Made by a program: the position numbers and the translations under genes | Notes under the pieces: model-generated | Databases searched by the model: none | What the model was told of the DNA's origin: nothing | The model's input: the letters and a program-made list of their open reading frames with translations, nothing else | Shown: positions 18,341-33,749 of the stretch, piece after piece | Layout: each line of letters starts with the position of its first letter | Position numbering within the stretch: the stretch's first letter is position 1 | NCBI GenBank assembly: GCA_001512885.1 | Contig: LFSZ01000096.1 | Location: 1 to 33,749 of the forward strand | Length of the DNA: 33,749 bases | Direction: 5' to 3' | From: Rikenellaceae bacterium DTU001 | GTDB taxonomy: Bacteria > Bacteroidota > Bacteroidia > Bacteroidales > DTU049

Positions 18341-18368
18341 AACTAAGAAAAAACAATAAAATCAAAAT

Positions 18369-18468
18369 AGGGGTAAGCACCCTACATCACACCGCTACAA
18401 CCACTTACCCTTGCTTCCTCTCGGACCTGGGGGAGTTCGTAGGAGCTGGTTGTGTAGGACCTACCCCT
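18369..18468 (-). ncRNA. ffs: 4.5S signal recognition particle RNA (small bacterial type)
   Basis: Read on the minus strand, the region contains CCAGGTCC-GAGA-GGAAGCA, the conserved Ffh-binding apical hairpin of SRP domain IV (tetraloop at 18419-18422). It is flanked by AGGGGTAGGTCCTACACAACC and by GGTTGTAGCGGTGTG, which pair, and the outermost bases AGGGGTA (18462-18468) pair with TACCCCT (18369-18375), closing a rod of about 100 nt. This RNA works with Ffh and FtsY to target membrane and secreted proteins. The tetraloop is GAGA instead of the common GGAA; both are GNRA loops. A TATCTTTG -7 box lies directly upstream. The region has no ORF. Exact ends are inferred from the closing helix. Confidence 0.93.
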
Positions 18469-18471
18469 CTG

Positions 18472-18479
18472 CAAAGATA
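18472..18479 (-). promoter_or_regulatory. -7 promoter box of the SRP RNA
   Basis: On the minus strand this reads TATCTTTG, matching TAnnTTTG, 3 nt before the first base-paired nucleotide of the SRP RNA. No well-spaced -33 TTTG is evident; an A/T tract takes that place. Confidence 0.55.
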
Positions 18480-19662: not shown

Positions 19663-19670
19663 AAAAAAAT
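19663..19670. repeat. Target-site duplication, left copy
   Basis: AAAAAAAT immediately outside the left inverted repeat; the identical octamer lies at 21214-21221 outside the right end. Eight base pairs is the duplication length known for IS1595-family transposition. The A-tract lowers the information content. Confidence 0.7.
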
Positions 19671-19696
19671 GGTTCTATAACGTTTTATATGGGTAA
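19671..19696 (+). repeat. Left terminal inverted repeat of the IS
   Basis: Begins GGTTCTATAACGTTTT and matches the reverse complement of 21188-21213 at 22 of 26 positions. Confidence 0.8.
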
Positions 19697-19734
19697 AGAT
19701 TAAAAAAAGAGTAATTTGTTAATATTGGTTTATT

Positions 19735-19900
19735 TATTATAGGACTGTTAAATATCAACCAAAAAGTTCTCAAAGAATGCACAAAAAACACAGAAAAGTA
19801 TGGAATTAAAAGGGCTACAAATGGTACTTTGTGATAAAAAAATTACCTAAATAATTAAAGATAGTTATTTTTTTGTAACAATCTATAATTTGATTACCCA
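19735..19900 (+). repeat. Internal direct repeat A of the IS
   Basis: Starts TATTATAGGACTGTTAAATA and ends TTTGATTACCCA; it corresponds to repeat B at 21051-21193, with about 85 percent agreement in the first 60 bp and again in the last 45 bp, and an unalignable or expanded middle. Includes the motif ATCAACCAAAAAGT (19754-19767), which is also found near the second transposase at the right edge. Confidence 0.75.
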
Positions 19901-19963
19901 AATTATAATCTTAGATATGTTGGATGAGGAGAATTGGAAACTTGAAACGGATCAGTCGGAAAA

Positions 19964-20974
19964 TTAACATATGTTTAAATTAACATATGTTATATTCACT
20001 AACTCTCTATACCGATACCACGCCCACCTGTCTGAGGATGCAAGGTTAAGCATTCGCCCAGTATTGCTTACAGTCTTGCCTGTGAGGTATTTACCCATCA
20101 CTACATACCACATAATGTAGTTTTGCAGGTATTTGGTAGCTACACCCCTAAATTTGAAATATATCCAATTCGTGAATTCACTAGCCTTTTTCTTGACAGT
20201 ACTTAGGTTATATATACCTCGCTTTTGCCTATTGCTAGTTACTATTTCCTTGTGCTTGATTACATTCCTTCTAACCTTTTTGAATGCTTTTTTATTACTG
20301 CTACACATGACTCCATCCTTTGGCATTTTAGCCTTCAGAAATTGCTCTATTTGTTCTGAACTTAGCTTTTTGTCATCAAATTTTTTGAATAATAAATTGC
20401 CAGCTCTGTCTGTAGCAGCCAATACGGCTACTTTCTTTGGCTTTTGTTTCCTAGCTCGCTTCAGCTCTTCGGCATTTTTGTATATTCTACCTTTTTCGGA
20501 ATAATCCATCAATAGTTCGTCCATCTCTACTACACCGAAAAAATTGATATTATCTTCGAAACTTTGTAAAGCTGCCAATATCTTGTGTCGCCAAGCAAAG
20601 CTTGTTGGTAGGCTGATGCCTACTTCTTTAGCACAAGCTCTGAGACTTTTGCCTGCTACCATACATCTGATGTAGTCGAGCATTTTCTCTTTCTTTTGCA
20701 ACCTGTAGACAAAAGTACCAGTGGTAACTCTAAATTGTCTGCCACAGTCTTTGCAGCGATAGTTTTGCATTCCATTTTGTAAACCATTTTTGATAATGTG
20801 ATTGCTACGACAGTCTGGGCATAGTGGCGGGGCGCTGAGTATTTTCAGACCTTGATAATCGACTACATCGGCTTTTAATTTTTTCATTAATGAATAAAGG
20901 TTGTCTAAGAATTCTTTATTCTCTTCCTTGCTCATAGCAAGGTATTTACTGGTATTTTCTACAATTTTTTTCAT
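19964..20974 (-). CDS. IS1595-family transposase (probably catalytically impaired)
   Basis: A 336-residue protein with an N-terminal zinc ribbon (Cys52, Cys55, Cys74, Cys77: CPDC...CKDC), a helix-turn-helix (about 105-135, GKSLRACAKEVGISLPTSFAWRHK) and an ISXO2-like transposase domain. The first catalytic Asp is present in VEMDE (Asp152). At the second site, where the family has C-S/T-D-x-x-x-A-F/Y, the sequence is CSSNKKAF with Ser226 in place of Asp. In the C-terminal block, usually HxNxVNxxHSxLK, the sequence is NLSTVKKKASEFT, so the expected Asn/His and Lys are missing, while the following FRGVATKYLQNYIMW is perfectly typical. The frame is open throughout. This alignment is from memory of the family and needs checking. 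Start is at ATG 20974, inside the element. Confidence 0.88.
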   Translation of the reverse strand: MKKIVENTSKYLAMSKEENKEFLDNLYSLMKKLKADVVDYQGLKILSAPPLCPDCRSNHIIKNGLQNGMQNYRCKDCGRQFRVTTGTFVYRLQKKEKMLDYIRCMVAGKSLRACAKEVGISLPTSFAWRHKILAALQSFEDNINFFGVVEMDELLMDYSEKGRIYKNAEELKRARKQKPKKVAVLAATDRAGNLLFKKFDDKKLSSEQIEQFLKAKMPKDGVMCSSNKKAFKKVRRNVIKHKEIVTSNRQKRGIYNLSTVKKKASEFTNWIYFKFRGVATKYLQNYIMWYVVMGKYLTGKTVSNTGRMLNLASSDRWAWYRYRELVNITYVNLNIC

Positions 20975-21050
20975 GAATTAAAATTTTTGTAAAAATATAA
21001 AAATTATTTAACATATAAACTTGAAAAACTTAAACATTTATTAATTTTTT

Positions 21051-21193
21051 TATTATTGGACAGTTAAATATCAACCAAAAAGTTCTCTGAGAATACACAA
21101 AGAACGCAAAGAAGAATGGGACTTTATATAATATCTTCGTACTCTTGTGGTAAAAAAATAACCTATTTGTAACAATCTAAAATTTGATTACCC
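21051..21193 (+). repeat. Internal direct repeat B of the IS
   Basis: Starts TATTATTGGACAGTTAAATA and ends TTTGATTACCCA, running directly into the right terminal inverted repeat. Corresponds to repeat A at 19735-19900. It includes ATCAACCAAAAAGT at 21070-21083 and a segment rich in CACAAAGAACGCAAAGAA, a type of word often seen in Bacteroidota dispersed repeats. Confidence 0.75.
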
Positions 21194-21213
21194 ACAATAA
21201 ACGTTATAGAATC
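21188..21213 (-). repeat. Right terminal inverted repeat of the IS
   Basis: Read inward on the minus strand it begins GATTCTATAACGTTTATTG and mirrors 19671-19696. The first two bases are GA rather than the GG of the left end. Confidence 0.8.
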
Positions 21214-21221
21214 AAAAAAAT
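21214..21221. repeat. Target-site duplication, right copy
   Basis: AAAAAAAT, identical to 19663-19670. Confidence 0.7.
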
Positions 21222-21309: not shown

Positions 21310-22134
21310 TTAGTTTCGCCACTGTGAGAGTTCTAAAAGTTTTGATAGGTAAATTATTAATTTTGCATGTATCTTATTATAGTAAAGATATAAAAATTGT
21401 GAGAGATTTTTATCCATCATGGCTCTAGCTCTTTCACTATGATTTTTACCCCCCAAATGCAACACTCGAGCTTCGGGTACAAAAACTATTTCATAGCCTT
21501 TTTGACTTGCTAACCAGCACCATTGCATATCTTCTATATACATCCAAAAAGTTTCTGGTAATAATTTATTTGGAAAAATATCTAACAATTTTTTATCAAA
21601 CATAAAAAATGTACCCCATACCCAGTCGGGATATGCTATTTCTGTGTAACTAAAAAAGGGACCATACAAAATTTTACCTGTTTTTTTAATAGGTAGCATT
21701 TTATTAATTCTAAAAATTTCAAATAGAATTTTACTTATTCTAGGAAATATTTGACAATTATTTTGAGGAGATCCATCCTCATTTTCTAATCTACACGTGA
21801 CTATTCCTACCTCTGGATGTTTTTTTAAAAAATTATATGTGATAGATATAGCATCGTTTAAAAGTTTTGTATCAGAATTAATAAGTAAAATTGTATCACC
21901 TTCAGCTACCTTGATACCATCATTACATCCACCTGCGAAGCCCTTATTTTTATAATTTTTTACTAATTTAATATAAGGAAATAATTCTAAAAAACTATCT
22001 GCCTGATCAGTAGTAGATGCATTATCTACAACTATTATTTCGAAATCCACATCTTTTGTATAGTCATATATAGATTTAATGCACTGACAGGTAAAATCAA
22101 AAGTATTATAATTTAAAATAACAATAGAAAGCAT
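21310..22134 (-). CDS. GT2 family glycosyltransferase (rhamnosyltransferase-like)
   Basis: A 274-residue soluble or peripheral GT-A enzyme: LSIVILNYNTFDFTCQCIKSI, IIVVDNASTTDQADSFLE, GFAGGCNDGIKVAEGD, INSDTKL (the DxD-type site) and FWMYIEDMQWCWLASQKGYEIVFVPEARVLHLGG. This resembles WbbL/RfbN-type transferases used for lipopolysaccharide or capsule chains. Donor and acceptor are not deducible. It is similar in its first 240 residues to the GT2 domain at 8387 but has no membrane region or C-terminal fusion. Its 3' end is about 96 bp from the IS, so the IS did not interrupt it, and no other polysaccharide gene flanks it here. Confidence 0.9.
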   Translation of the reverse strand: MLSIVILNYNTFDFTCQCIKSIYDYTKDVDFEIIVVDNASTTDQADSFLELFPYIKLVKNYKNKGFAGGCNDGIKVAEGDTILLINSDTKLLNDAISITYNFLKKHPEVGIVTCRLENEDGSPQNNCQIFPRISKILFEIFRINKMLPIKKTGKILYGPFFSYTEIAYPDWVWGTFFMFDKKLLDIFPNKLLPETFWMYIEDMQWCWLASQKGYEIVFVPEARVLHLGGKNHSERARAMMDKNLSQFLYLYYNKIHAKLIIYLSKLLELSQWRN

Positions 22135-22639
22135 TATTTTTGATAGTTTTATCTAAAATTTTTAATTAAAAACAAACAATTCTAAAACATAACATTTATA
22201 TTACTAAAATTATAAAAACCATGTCAAGGATCACACAAGATTTAAGAGTAAATTATTTATAGATAGTCTAAATTATGATTTTTATTTTATACAAATTTAA
22301 GAAAAAGTTTTACATAATAAAGTAAATAATATGAACATTTAGATTCAATAAAATTTATTGTAGATAATAAAATTTTAGCTTGATATATTGATAGCATTTT
22401 TTTTCTTATCGTTATCTATGCTTTTAAGATTTTACCTTTACTATTCAAAAAATATGCCCAATATTAGCATTTTATTTATAAAAATTACTAATTTTTATTT
22501 ACTCATACAAGACTTTATAGAACCTATTTTATTAATTAAAGTAGTGGAAATTTAAGTTGCATTTTTGTAAAACATAAAATAAACTATTAAATTATTTCAA
22601 ATTTTTGATTTAATTTTGCAAATATTTTTTTAAATAGAT
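22135..22639. other. 505-bp intergenic region before thrS
   Basis: Divergent spacer between the GT2 gene and thrS. It is very A/T-rich and holds no credible ORF, tRNA or T-box-like structure that I can see. The only notable sites are a TAATTTTG -7 box close to thrS and a short 15-nt palindrome CAATAAAATTTATTG at 22346-22360. Confidence 0.6.
22611..22618 (+). promoter_or_regulatory. Putative -7 box of the thrS operon
   Basis: TAATTTTG matches TAnnTTTG and ends 21 nt before the thrS ATG. A -33 element with correct spacing is not clear. Confidence 0.45.
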
Positions 22640-24589
22640 ATGAAAGATATAGTTATAACTTTTTCTGATAATAGTAAAAAAATATATCCCGCTGGCATTA
22701 CTGGTATGGATATAGCCCAATCTATTAGTCAGAGTTTAGCTAGAGAAGCTTTAGCTATCAAAGTAAACGATACGTTATTAGATTTAGAAAGACCAATAGA
22801 AAGTGATGCTAAAATACAAATTTTGACTTGGGAAGATAGAGAAGGCAAAGAAGTATTCTGGCATTCATCTGCTCATATAATGGCTGCGGCTGTATTTTCA
22901 CTTTTCCCTCATGTGAAATTTGGCATAGGTCCTAGCATAGAGCAAGGTTTTTATTATGATATTGATTTTGGTGATTATAAAATAACAGAAGATGATATAG
23001 AAAAAATAGAAAATAAAGCAAAAGATATAATAAAACAAGATTTACCCTTTATTAGAAAAGAGATTACAAAAGCTGAAGCTATTAATTTATTCGAAAAAAG
23101 TAATGATACATATAAACTTGAATTAATTCAAGAACTAGAAAATGAGCAAATTACCTTATATTGTCTTGGAGAATATATTGATTTATGTCGTGGTCCACAT
23201 TTACCATCTACTAAATATGTTAAAACTTTTAAATTATTAAATATTGCAGGTGCTTATTGGCGGGGCGATGAGCATAGACAAATGCTTACACGCATTTATG
23301 GTATTAGTTTTCCTTCAAAAAAATTATTAGATGATTATTTAACTTTTTTAGAAGAAGCTAAAAAGCGTGATCATAGGAAATTAGGCAAAGAATTAGAATT
23401 ATTTATGTTTAACCAAAAAGTAGGTCAAGGCTTACCAATGTGGCTTCCCAAAGGTACAATAGTTAGAGAGGAACTCGAAAAATTTTTAAAAAAAATACAA
23501 ATTCAATATGGGTATCAACATGTAATCACACCGCACATTGGACAAAAAGAGCTGTATATGACATCTGGACATTACGAAAAATATGCTAAAGATTCATTTC
23601 GTCCTATATCTACTCCTAATGAAAATGAAGAATTTATGTTAAAACCAATGAACTGCCCTCATCATTGCGAGATATATGCTTTTAAACCCAGATCATATAA
23701 GGATTTGCCATTGAGAATAGCAGAATTTGGAACTGTTTACAGATATGAGCAGAGTGGCGAACTTCACGGTCTCACACGAGTACGGAGTTTTACTCAAGAT
23801 GATGCTCACATATTTTGTACTAATGATCAACTAAATGAAGAGTTTCATAAAGTAATGGAAATAGTTTTGCTAATACTTAATACTTTTGATTTTAAAAATT
23901 TTACAGCTCAAGTTTCTCTAAGGGATCCTGATAACAAAGAAAAATATATAGGTACAGATGAAAATTGGGATAAAGCAGAGGAAGCAATCTTAGAAAGTGT
24001 AGCTAATACCGAATTTAATATAATAATTGCTAAAGGTGAAGCTGCTTTTTATGGTCCTAAATTAGATTTTATGGTGCAAGACGCCATCGGACGCAGCTGG
24101 CAATTGGGCACAATACAAGTAGATTATAACTTACCTGAAAGATTTAACCTAGAATATATTGGTCCAGACAACCAAAAATACCGTCCAGTAATGATTCATA
24201 GAGCTATTTTCGGATCTATGGAAAGATTTGTATCTTTGTTATTAGAACAAACTGCTGGTAAATTACCACTTTGGTTAGCTCCTGTACAAGTTATAGTATT
24301 ACCTATTAGTGAAAAATATATTGAATATGGAAAAAAAGTTGTATCTTTGCTCTCAAATTTTGATGTAAGAACAGAAATGGATGATAGATCTGAAAAAATA
24401 GGCAAAAAAATACGTGATGCTGAGTTAGAGCACATACCTTATATGCTTATAGTAGGCGAAAAAGAACAAAACGACAATGCTCTATCTGTACGTCGTCAAG
24501 GAATAGGAGACATCGGCGTAATGCCTATTGAGAGCTTTATGAATATATTTTCAGAAGAGATTAATAAAAGTTTAACTAATAAAAATTAA
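22640..24589 (+). CDS. thrS: Threonyl-tRNA synthetase
   Basis: Class II synthetase charging tRNA-Thr; 649 residues, the full bacterial length. Domains in order: TGS (about 1-62, [25 protein letters not shown]), the editing domain (about 70-225, with [17 protein letters not shown] and [18 protein letters not shown]), the catalytic core with [16 protein letters not shown] (zinc Cys), [31 protein letters not shown] (motif 2) and [11 protein letters not shown] (motif 3), and the anticodon-binding domain (about 550-640). With an intact editing domain it should clear Ser-tRNA-Thr. It heads the thrS-infC-rpmI-rplT cluster, with infC starting only 8 bp after its stop. Confidence 0.97.
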
Positions 24590-25359: not shown

Positions 25360-25430
25360 TTGTTTTCAGCCCCTAAGAGCATTTTTAATTATTTGATAAA
25401 AATTAGAATAGTAAAAAGCCGCTGAAACAA
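25360..25430 (+). promoter_or_regulatory. Structured leader before rplT (candidate bL20 operator)
   Basis: TTGTTTTCAGC (25360-25370) pairs with GCTGAAACAA (25421-25430), 10 base pairs with one bulge, enclosing an A/T-rich 50-nt region. The 3' arm ends immediately before AAGGAGG, the Shine-Dalgarno of rplT. bL20 represses its own operon through mRNA structures in E. coli and B. subtilis; a similar role here is inferred from position, not from recognised primary sequence. Confidence 0.45.
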
Positions 25431-25431
25431 G

Positions 25432-25439
25432 AAGGAGGT
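25432..25439 (+). promoter_or_regulatory. Strong Shine-Dalgarno before rplT
   Basis: AAGGAGGT, with 5 nt between it and the ATG at 25445. It decides the start: an in-frame TTG at 25439 overlaps the motif itself and is not used. It is one of only two such sites noticed in the window. Confidence 0.75.
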
Positions 25440-25444
25440 TGATT

Positions 25445-25792
25445 ATGTCAAGAAGTGTTAATCATGTAGCATCAAAAGCTAGAAAAAAGAAAATTCTACG
25501 CCTTACAAAAGGATATCGTGGGCGTAATAAAAATGTGTGGACTGTAGCTAAAAATCGATGGGAAAAAGGACAAACACATGCGTATGTGGGTCGTAAATTA
25601 AAAAAAAGAGACTACAGAAAATTGTGGATCCAACGTATCAATGCAGCAGCTAGGTTGAATGGCATGTCTTATTCTCAATTTATAGGACTAATTCACAAAA
25701 ACAATGTGGCTCTTAATAGAAAAGTATTAGCTGATCTCGCAATGAATGAACCTGAAGTTTTTGCTAAAATCGTAGATAGCGTTAAAAATTAA
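25445..25792 (+). CDS. rplT: 50S ribosomal protein bL20
   Basis: A 115-residue basic protein, needed early in 50S assembly: [20 protein letters not shown], then [20 protein letters not shown] and [27 protein letters not shown] chose ATG 25445 because the conserved bL20 N-terminus begins there and the Shine-Dalgarno lies at the correct distance. In other bacteria this protein also represses infC-rpmI-rplT translation by binding the mRNA. The 104-bp gap after rpmI and its hairpin suggest separate control here. Length is within the usual 114-120 residues. Confidence 0.97.
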
Positions 25793-30965: not shown

Positions 30966-30992
30966 CAAACTAAAATAAATATTAAGGTAAAT

Positions 30993-31181
30993 ATGGCAAG
31001 GAAATCAAAAGATGCAAGAGTGCAGGTAATTTTAGAGTGCACAGAGCAGAAAAATACTGGAGTACCTGGCATATCTCGATATGTAACTACAAAAAATCGC
31101 AAAAATACTCCAGAGAGATTAGAATTAAGGAAATATAATCCATATTTAAAAAAATATACTATACACAAAGAAATCAAATAA
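30993..31181 (+). CDS. rpmG: 50S ribosomal protein bL33
   Basis: A 62-residue ribosomal protein: [20 protein letters not shown], then [23 protein letters not shown] and a Lys-rich end. I use ATG 30993 because the conserved bL33 N-terminus starts there; an upstream in-frame TTG at 30963 lies inside the -7 promoter box. It has only one Cys (ECTEQK), i.e. the zinc-free C- type rather than the four-Cys C+ type. In many Bacteroidota the order is rpmB-rpmG-DUF4295-ftsY; here neither rpmB nor ftsY is adjacent. It is followed by DUF4295 after 12 bp. Confidence 0.96.
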
Positions 31182-33585: not shown

Positions 33586-33599
33586 ATCAACCAAAAAGT
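33586..33599 (+). repeat. Third copy of the IS-associated motif ATCAACCAAAAAGT
   Basis: Identical to 14-bp segments at 19754-19767 and 21070-21083 in the complete IS. It lies 57 bp beyond the stop of the second transposase, on the same side as repeat A of the first element. The rest of 33381-33656 holds no other recognisable feature and no matching inverted repeat. Confidence 0.6.
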
Positions 33600-33656
33600 A
33601 TTGTAAAATAAAATAAGAAATGTTTTGGAAGGGGGAGTAATATTATTCTTCAGTGT

Positions 33657-33749
33657 TTAAATATACACAGGACTTGCTCTCAAGTCTCTGTATACATACC
33701 ACGCTCGCCTGTCTGATGATGCGAGATTGAGCATCCTACCTACATCTGG
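33657..33749 (-). CDS. IS1595-family transposase, C-terminal 30 codons (cut by window edge)
   Basis: On the minus strand the window edge is open and the frame ends at TAA (33657-33659). The 30 visible residues PDVGRMLNLASSDRRAWYVY plus RDLRASPVYI match the C-terminus of the complete transposase (NTGRMLNLASSDRWAWYRYRELVNITYVNL), so this is a related but not identical element, about 70 percent similar over the shared part. Whether the rest is intact lies outside the window. Confidence 0.8.
   Translation of the reverse strand, partial: PDVGRMLNLASSDRRAWYVYRDLRASPVYI

Follow-up and report, generated by a model that had tools for sequence, protein, structure and literature searches.

The unit at positions 19671–21213 of the window, that is, of the whole stretch of 33,749 nucleotides that was analysed, is probably a composite in which two clipped, directly oriented MITEs of about 290 bp bound an IS1595-family passenger, and which would be moved in trans by an ISL3 transposase (we give this reading a probability of about 0.7). 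Its features, outermost included, are the following.

19663..19670, no strand: left 8-bp target duplication AAAAAAAT, from the sequence
19671..19696, plus strand: left outer terminal inverted repeat (TIR) of ISL3/MITE type, 23 of 26 positions identical to the 5' end of an ISL3-type element
~19671..19900, plus strand: arm A, corresponding to the MITE without its last ~20 bp (the inner TIR), from the alignment with 20 solo MITEs
19901..19955, plus strand: G-rich spacer from arm A to the core, recognisable in 12 of 12 arm-A ends
19956..21048 (unit positions 286–1378), minus strand: IS1595-family core, the passenger, of which arm-less copies exist too
19964..20974, minus strand: IS1595-family transposase ORF of 336 aa, from profile matches
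21049..21213, plus strand: arm B, corresponding to a MITE from which the first ~95 alignment columns (the inner TIR and the subterminal part) are missing, and joined directly to the core, from the alignment and the junctions
21188..21213, minus strand: right outer TIR, the last 37 bp being identical at 32 of 37 positions to the 3' end of the ISL3-type element
21214..21221, no strand: right 8-bp target duplication AAAAAAAT

The two outer TIRs agree at 22 of 26 positions and are each followed immediately outward by AAAAAAAT, an 8/8 duplication. A match of this quality arose by chance in 26 of 154,449 pairs of 8-mers from two 400-bp flanks (1.7e-4), and in 8 of 2,809 pairs from A/T-rich 60-bp flanks (2.9e-3). 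The first-pass annotation had described these TIRs, the duplications and a single transposase, and the window sequence, its ORFs and a profile search bear it out on all three, as well as in the view that this is a delimited, compound element whose repeats are the ends of something nested or duplicated. The two long direct repeats that it reported are also there, with slightly shifted limits (~19671–19900 for A, ~21049–21213 for B); repeat B does continue into the right TIR, and arm A ends about 20 bp short of one. The repeats are 84% identical over 81 nt in a first ungapped block (19723–19803 and 21039–21119) and 91% over 34 nt in a second (19872–19905 and 21166–21199), and a gapped alignment of the two arms gives 71% over 182 aligned positions. 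The RNA fold of arm B is no better than that of shuffles (z 1.14).

The transposase in the core carries a DDE_Tnp_IS1595 domain above the curated cut-off, and scores 128.2 bits with NF033547 IS1595 (cut-off 75), 39.6 with PF12762 (27) and 53.8 with NF050000 (28). The IS1595 label given to the unit at first is therefore right for the gene, but not for the ends, which are of ISL3 type. The TIRs, taken earlier to define an IS1595 element, belong together with the long repeats to a MITE that also exists as solo copies, in this genome and in the genus.

Solo MITEs and an ISL3-type element with the same ends

A search of the own genome (1.9 Mb in 117 contigs, the window being contig C51) returned 52 matches with arm B and 43 with arm A plus spacer, many of them without a core. 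The MITE is about 290 bp long, the solo copies measuring mostly 235–330 bp (one has 133) with both TIRs present, and the TIR piece GTTCTATAACGTTT, allowing at most one mismatch, occurs 86 times in the genome versus 6 times for the reversed control. With fixed boundaries, the octamers outside the TIRs match at 7 or 8 of 8 positions in 13 of 24 solo-size TIR pairs, versus 13 of 552 cross-pairs, and fully in 6 of the 24 versus 2 of 552 between different copies; the 24 pairs include L013 and the 328-bp L078 pair, both probably chance pairings. Arms and solo copies are thus short, multicopy sequences with TIRs and 8-bp duplications, as expected of an ISL3-type MITE. When aligned with 20 solo MITEs, the composite is seen to keep both outer TIRs and to have lost both inner ones. 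The longest of these 20 has at most 327 bp, and we saw no sign of the lost left transposase that had been suggested.

Decayed remains of a second MITE lie in the window at 22343–22523 (181 bp, with ends ATTCAATAAAATTTATTG.. and ..GACTTTATAGAACC), between the ORF starts of 21310–22134 (minus strand) and 22640–24589 (plus strand).

Arm A plus spacer had 45, 43, 46, 5 and 2 matches in the five congeneric genomes compared, the MITE being abundant in three of these, and because of these numbers the MITE is more widespread than the composite and most likely older. They also bear on the idea that arms A and B of composites recombined and left the solo MITEs behind, as retrotransposons leave solo LTRs. 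Judging from the anatomy, an A x B crossover would yield exactly a full MITE; however, each of three congeners holds 43–46 MITE matches, and the relatives' loci examined (omitting L234, L240, L265, which is the window copy, and L213, which is from the own genome, and taking L197 and L275 as one locus) gave one MITE abutting a transposase and another 162 bp off, the abutting one (32 bp, left TIR toward the gene) being unlike arm A. As an origin for the MITE family we consider this highly improbable, although arm recombination may explain single solo copies.

The MITE ends are shared with an ISL3-type element. As a control for the similarity at the 5' end listed above, the best of 2,000 random 26-mers of the window reached 15 identities. 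The contig ends of C43, C82, C24 and C57 run into an element with the same left TIR as the MITE, and an ORF start, MKSKEIFSLALNLEKPWYIKDIIFE, is readable in two of the four (C43 and C57, with one residue different in C57). A congener, G005, holds on its contig C427 a 664-bp degenerate ISL3 copy between both TIRs, a copy of an ISL3 element that shares its ends with the MITE; it has PF01610 (ISL3) matches over the cut-off and the N-terminus of the C43/C57 ORF (70% over 27 aa, with stops). On contig C310 of the same genome, an ISL3 C-terminus ends inside the right TIR, with 34.1 bits for PF01610 (cut-off 23); this piece has 43 aa and scores 32.7 bits with NF033550, below the whole-protein cut-off of 180. 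No family model matched the 28-aa ISL3 N-terminal peptide alone. An intact ISL3 gene was not found in the assemblies, neither the own genome nor four of the five congeners having any PF01610 match; perhaps the interior, present in near-identical copies, collapsed out of the short-read assembly. ISL3 elements make 8-bp target duplications. By its ends, the MITE is related, as a non-autonomous form, to an ISL3-type element found in the genus.

The same observations weigh on a simpler account, namely that there is one IS1595 element with outer TIRs of its own and a non-coding end that was duplicated or nested, in which case the solo MITEs would be IS1595 MITEs moved by its transposase through their GGTTCTATAACGTTT ends. 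The 8-bp duplications suit IS1595 equally well: an IS1595 element with an 8-bp, A/T-rich duplication has been reported (PMC12561309), and since such an element makes one too, the duplication cannot identify the enzyme. The multicopy composite with its common junctions (see below) would also be accommodated. Nevertheless, six of the 13 complete loci have the same core but not these ends, the degenerate ISL3 element carries both ends, and the best IS1595 matches in the MITE-rich congeners are only 65–67% identical to the window transposase, so we regard this account as unlikely.

The IS1595 core and the junctions of the composite

With the whole unit as query, 45 matches of two classes were obtained in the own genome, which cover either most of the unit or positions 286–1378 only; relatives in named public genomes are Bacteroidales MAGs. 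The 13 complete cores are 94–97% identical, the similarity stopping within about 10 bp on both sides; the edges themselves seem by eye to have a weak, imperfect inverted repeat of ~20 bp, and the flanks farther out are mostly unrelated between copies. Both arms are present in five of them (C51, C55, C66, C112 and C104, the last near a contig start and without the outermost 42 bp), arm A alone in C83, arm B alone in C43, and none in six (C3, C13, C41, C45, C82 and C93). When cores cut by contig ends are included and a flank of at least 50 nt is required, arm A is found at 12 of 30 core 3' ends, and is hence not peculiar to the window copy as had been considered, and arm B at 10 of 29 core 5' ends. 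The rows D of C43 and U of C83 have no arm and do not contribute to the arms counted; C94, with a B-type flank in one comparison, is outside the 29 counted 5' ends. In C14, a whole MITE with its own duplication lies near the core.

At the A junction, recognisably the same spacer is present at all 12 ends (shortened in C44 and C53), and at the B junction the same joint is present at 10 of 10 ends, arm B of C66 having an inner deletion. Because arm-bearing copies at different loci, on different contigs, have common junctions, we conclude from the sequences that the sandwich formed once and then multiplied. A second type of junction, in which the MITE right end and an unrelated spacer of ~80 bp stand at the core 5' end, was found at C17 and C92 (L125 and L128) and apparently represents a second capture.

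At the contig ends L279 (C84), L280 (C104) and L281 (C79), a MITE is similarly placed next to an element of another IS1595 subfamily, a short derivative that keeps a C-terminal fragment only; L287 (C65) resembles these but is partly masked. This type is possibly a further amplified MITE/IS1595 compound.

As for the formation of the window composite, MITEs would have landed on either side of one core, after which both inner TIRs were lost. Since the outer TIRs of the composite are those of the MITE, an ISL3 transposase is the expected mover: supplied from elsewhere, it would move the whole composite and leave 8-bp duplications, while the IS1595 transposase inside would be cargo, acting on its own core ends. 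Given the ISL3-type outer ends, we infer that mobilisation in trans is the simplest route.

The arms could alternatively derive from a single MITE, into which the core inserted with a target duplication of ~180 bp (L-M-core-M-R), so that A is L+M and B is M+R. The contents of the two arms are indeed L+M and M+R. On the other hand, long target duplications, sought as direct repeats around the six arm-less complete cores, did not exceed shuffles; one-armed C83 was below its shuffles and C43 slightly above (36 vs 32). Moreover, the ~55-bp spacer of the A junction is not found in MITEs, and the arms of the window copy show only the 71% identity given above. Such an insertion is quite improbable in our view, and we return to the two-MITE composite.

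Direct repeats flanking the whole unit are found in the window copy, but not in C55, C66 or C112. Octamers could be compared in the four composites with both TIRs: the window copy matches, C55 and C66 have none, and the best for C112 is 7/9 with shifted bounds. Recurrence of TIRs and octamers at independent insertions, as asked for by the first-pass annotation, is thus seen for the solo MITEs (13 of the 24 pairs) but not for three of the four composites. The tree of the cores is an unresolved star with no well-supported branch, the composites forming one clade in 0% of 200 bootstrap trees; it is still compatible with one origin, provided that exchange between copies is added. Recombination among ~30 cores and at least 20 solo MITEs, shuffling flanks and arms, would fit both the missing duplications and the scattered tree.

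An empty site of the window locus was sought in five congeners; the genes of both sides occur only in G004, on different contigs and at ~75–81% identity, one of them standing at a contig end. For the flank duplicated between C3 and C41, considered for the same purpose, the other two homologous places do not reach the junction. Some IS1595 copies of the 66% subfamily share one flank between species (L202/L206 and L204/L207), reflecting old insertions held in common or else a preferred site.

G-rich tracts beside IS1595 cores

The arm-less flanks of the cores have an unusual composition. Read toward the core, the 50 nt lying 10–60 nt outside it contain on average 11.0 G and 2.6 C, versus 4.9 G and 4.3 C in the same flanks at 110–160 nt. 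Near the core, 19 of 32 flanks have a G-over-C skew of at least 0.5; farther out 3 of 32 do, and among the 50-mers of the window 7.1%. The skew is therefore frequent, not universal. These figures are for 32 arm-less flanks out of 34 and leave aside those of C43 and C83; the arm-less side of C83 does not look G-rich and abuts an ORF end 18 bp away. With all 34 flanks split by side, the G excess is present on both, and it therefore mirrors about the element and does not reflect a one-strand target. The same trend was observed in eight other IS1595 clusters, with 39 copies in six genomes of the genus, that of the window included. The tracts are ~60 nt long (loci L190–L229) and, apart from a few pairs, their sequences differ between copies.

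Among 43 IS1595 copies (six of this core, the rest of other subfamilies), neither an 8-bp nor any other convincing target duplication was found. A common 9-mer within 90 nt was seen in 15 of the 43 versus 22.6% of cross-pairs, a slight excess at no consistent position; there was little excess at 60 nt (6/43 vs 9.5%) or 150 nt (24/43 vs 51.4%). At none of 9 loci did a joint scan for duplication and TIR exceed the best of the 50 shuffles made for that locus, and TIRs hidden in the G-rich flanks were not apparent in 39 copies of other subfamilies, own pairs scoring 22.2 and cross pairs 21.6.

A scan of the window outside its listed ORFs, for 50-nt stretches with at least 12 G and no more than 4 C, gave the following tracts.

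19900–19967: spacer of the window composite
25392–25448: across the start, at 25439, of an ORF
30976–31039: at a small ORF, L33-like by eye
33588–33672: beside an IS1595 transposase fragment at 33678
in the SRP RNA gene

The gene in the last line is a Bacteroidales small SRP RNA gene at 18367–18473 on the minus strand (RF04183, 91.8 bits), and the fragment at 33678–33749 belongs to another IS1595-family transposase, of which the window, at its edge, includes the C-terminal end only.

Tentatively, and as a rather doubtful proposal, the ends of IS1595 elements in this genus might be set by strand composition and not by sequence, in which case capture between ISL3 MITEs would have given one such element a second, sequence-defined pair of ends, with two unrelated transposases serving the unit. 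If the G-rich tracts are real ends, they raise the question of how an IS1595-like transposase finds its substrate.

Relation to known systems

In a limited search of the open-access literature, we did not find a composite of ISL3 MITEs and an IS1595 element in print. With respect to the IS1595 family, the transposase is typical in matching NF033547, PF12762 and the IS1/IS1595 zinc domain, but the core shows at most a weak inverted repeat and no detectable duplication, and the outer TIRs are not its own. With respect to the ISL3 family and its MITEs, the outer TIRs and the last ~40 bp match the ISL3-type element of the genus, whereas the composite has no ISL3 gene inside. TIRs and a target duplication around one transposase gene are accordingly not proof that this transposase owns the ends, and caution is needed where elements are delimited in this way.

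An association of an insertion sequence with a MITE is also known from Coxiella, where, as summarised in a review (PMC10969869), IS1111 targets the palindrome of QMITE2; in our case two MITEs bound the element. The closest likeness is to TIME-COMPs, which the relevant parts of PMC4133298 and PMC13367494 describe as composites in which Tn3-derived MITEs, in direct or inverted orientation, enclose a passenger, and for which they give a tested precedent that the unit can transpose with the transposase in trans. There too, two MITEs bound a passenger, and some cases are likewise without flanking direct repeats. By comparison with those accounts, the MITE of the window is of ISL3 type with 8-bp and not 5-bp duplications, the inner TIRs are lost, a complete insertion sequence from a different family serves as passenger, and the unit has been amplified in one genome. 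MITE-bounded composites are a known kind; the joining of the ISL3 MITE and IS1595 families seems new within the literature searched, and would mean that a MITE outside the Tn3 group, too, can build and multiply a composite with the insertion sequence of another family as cargo.
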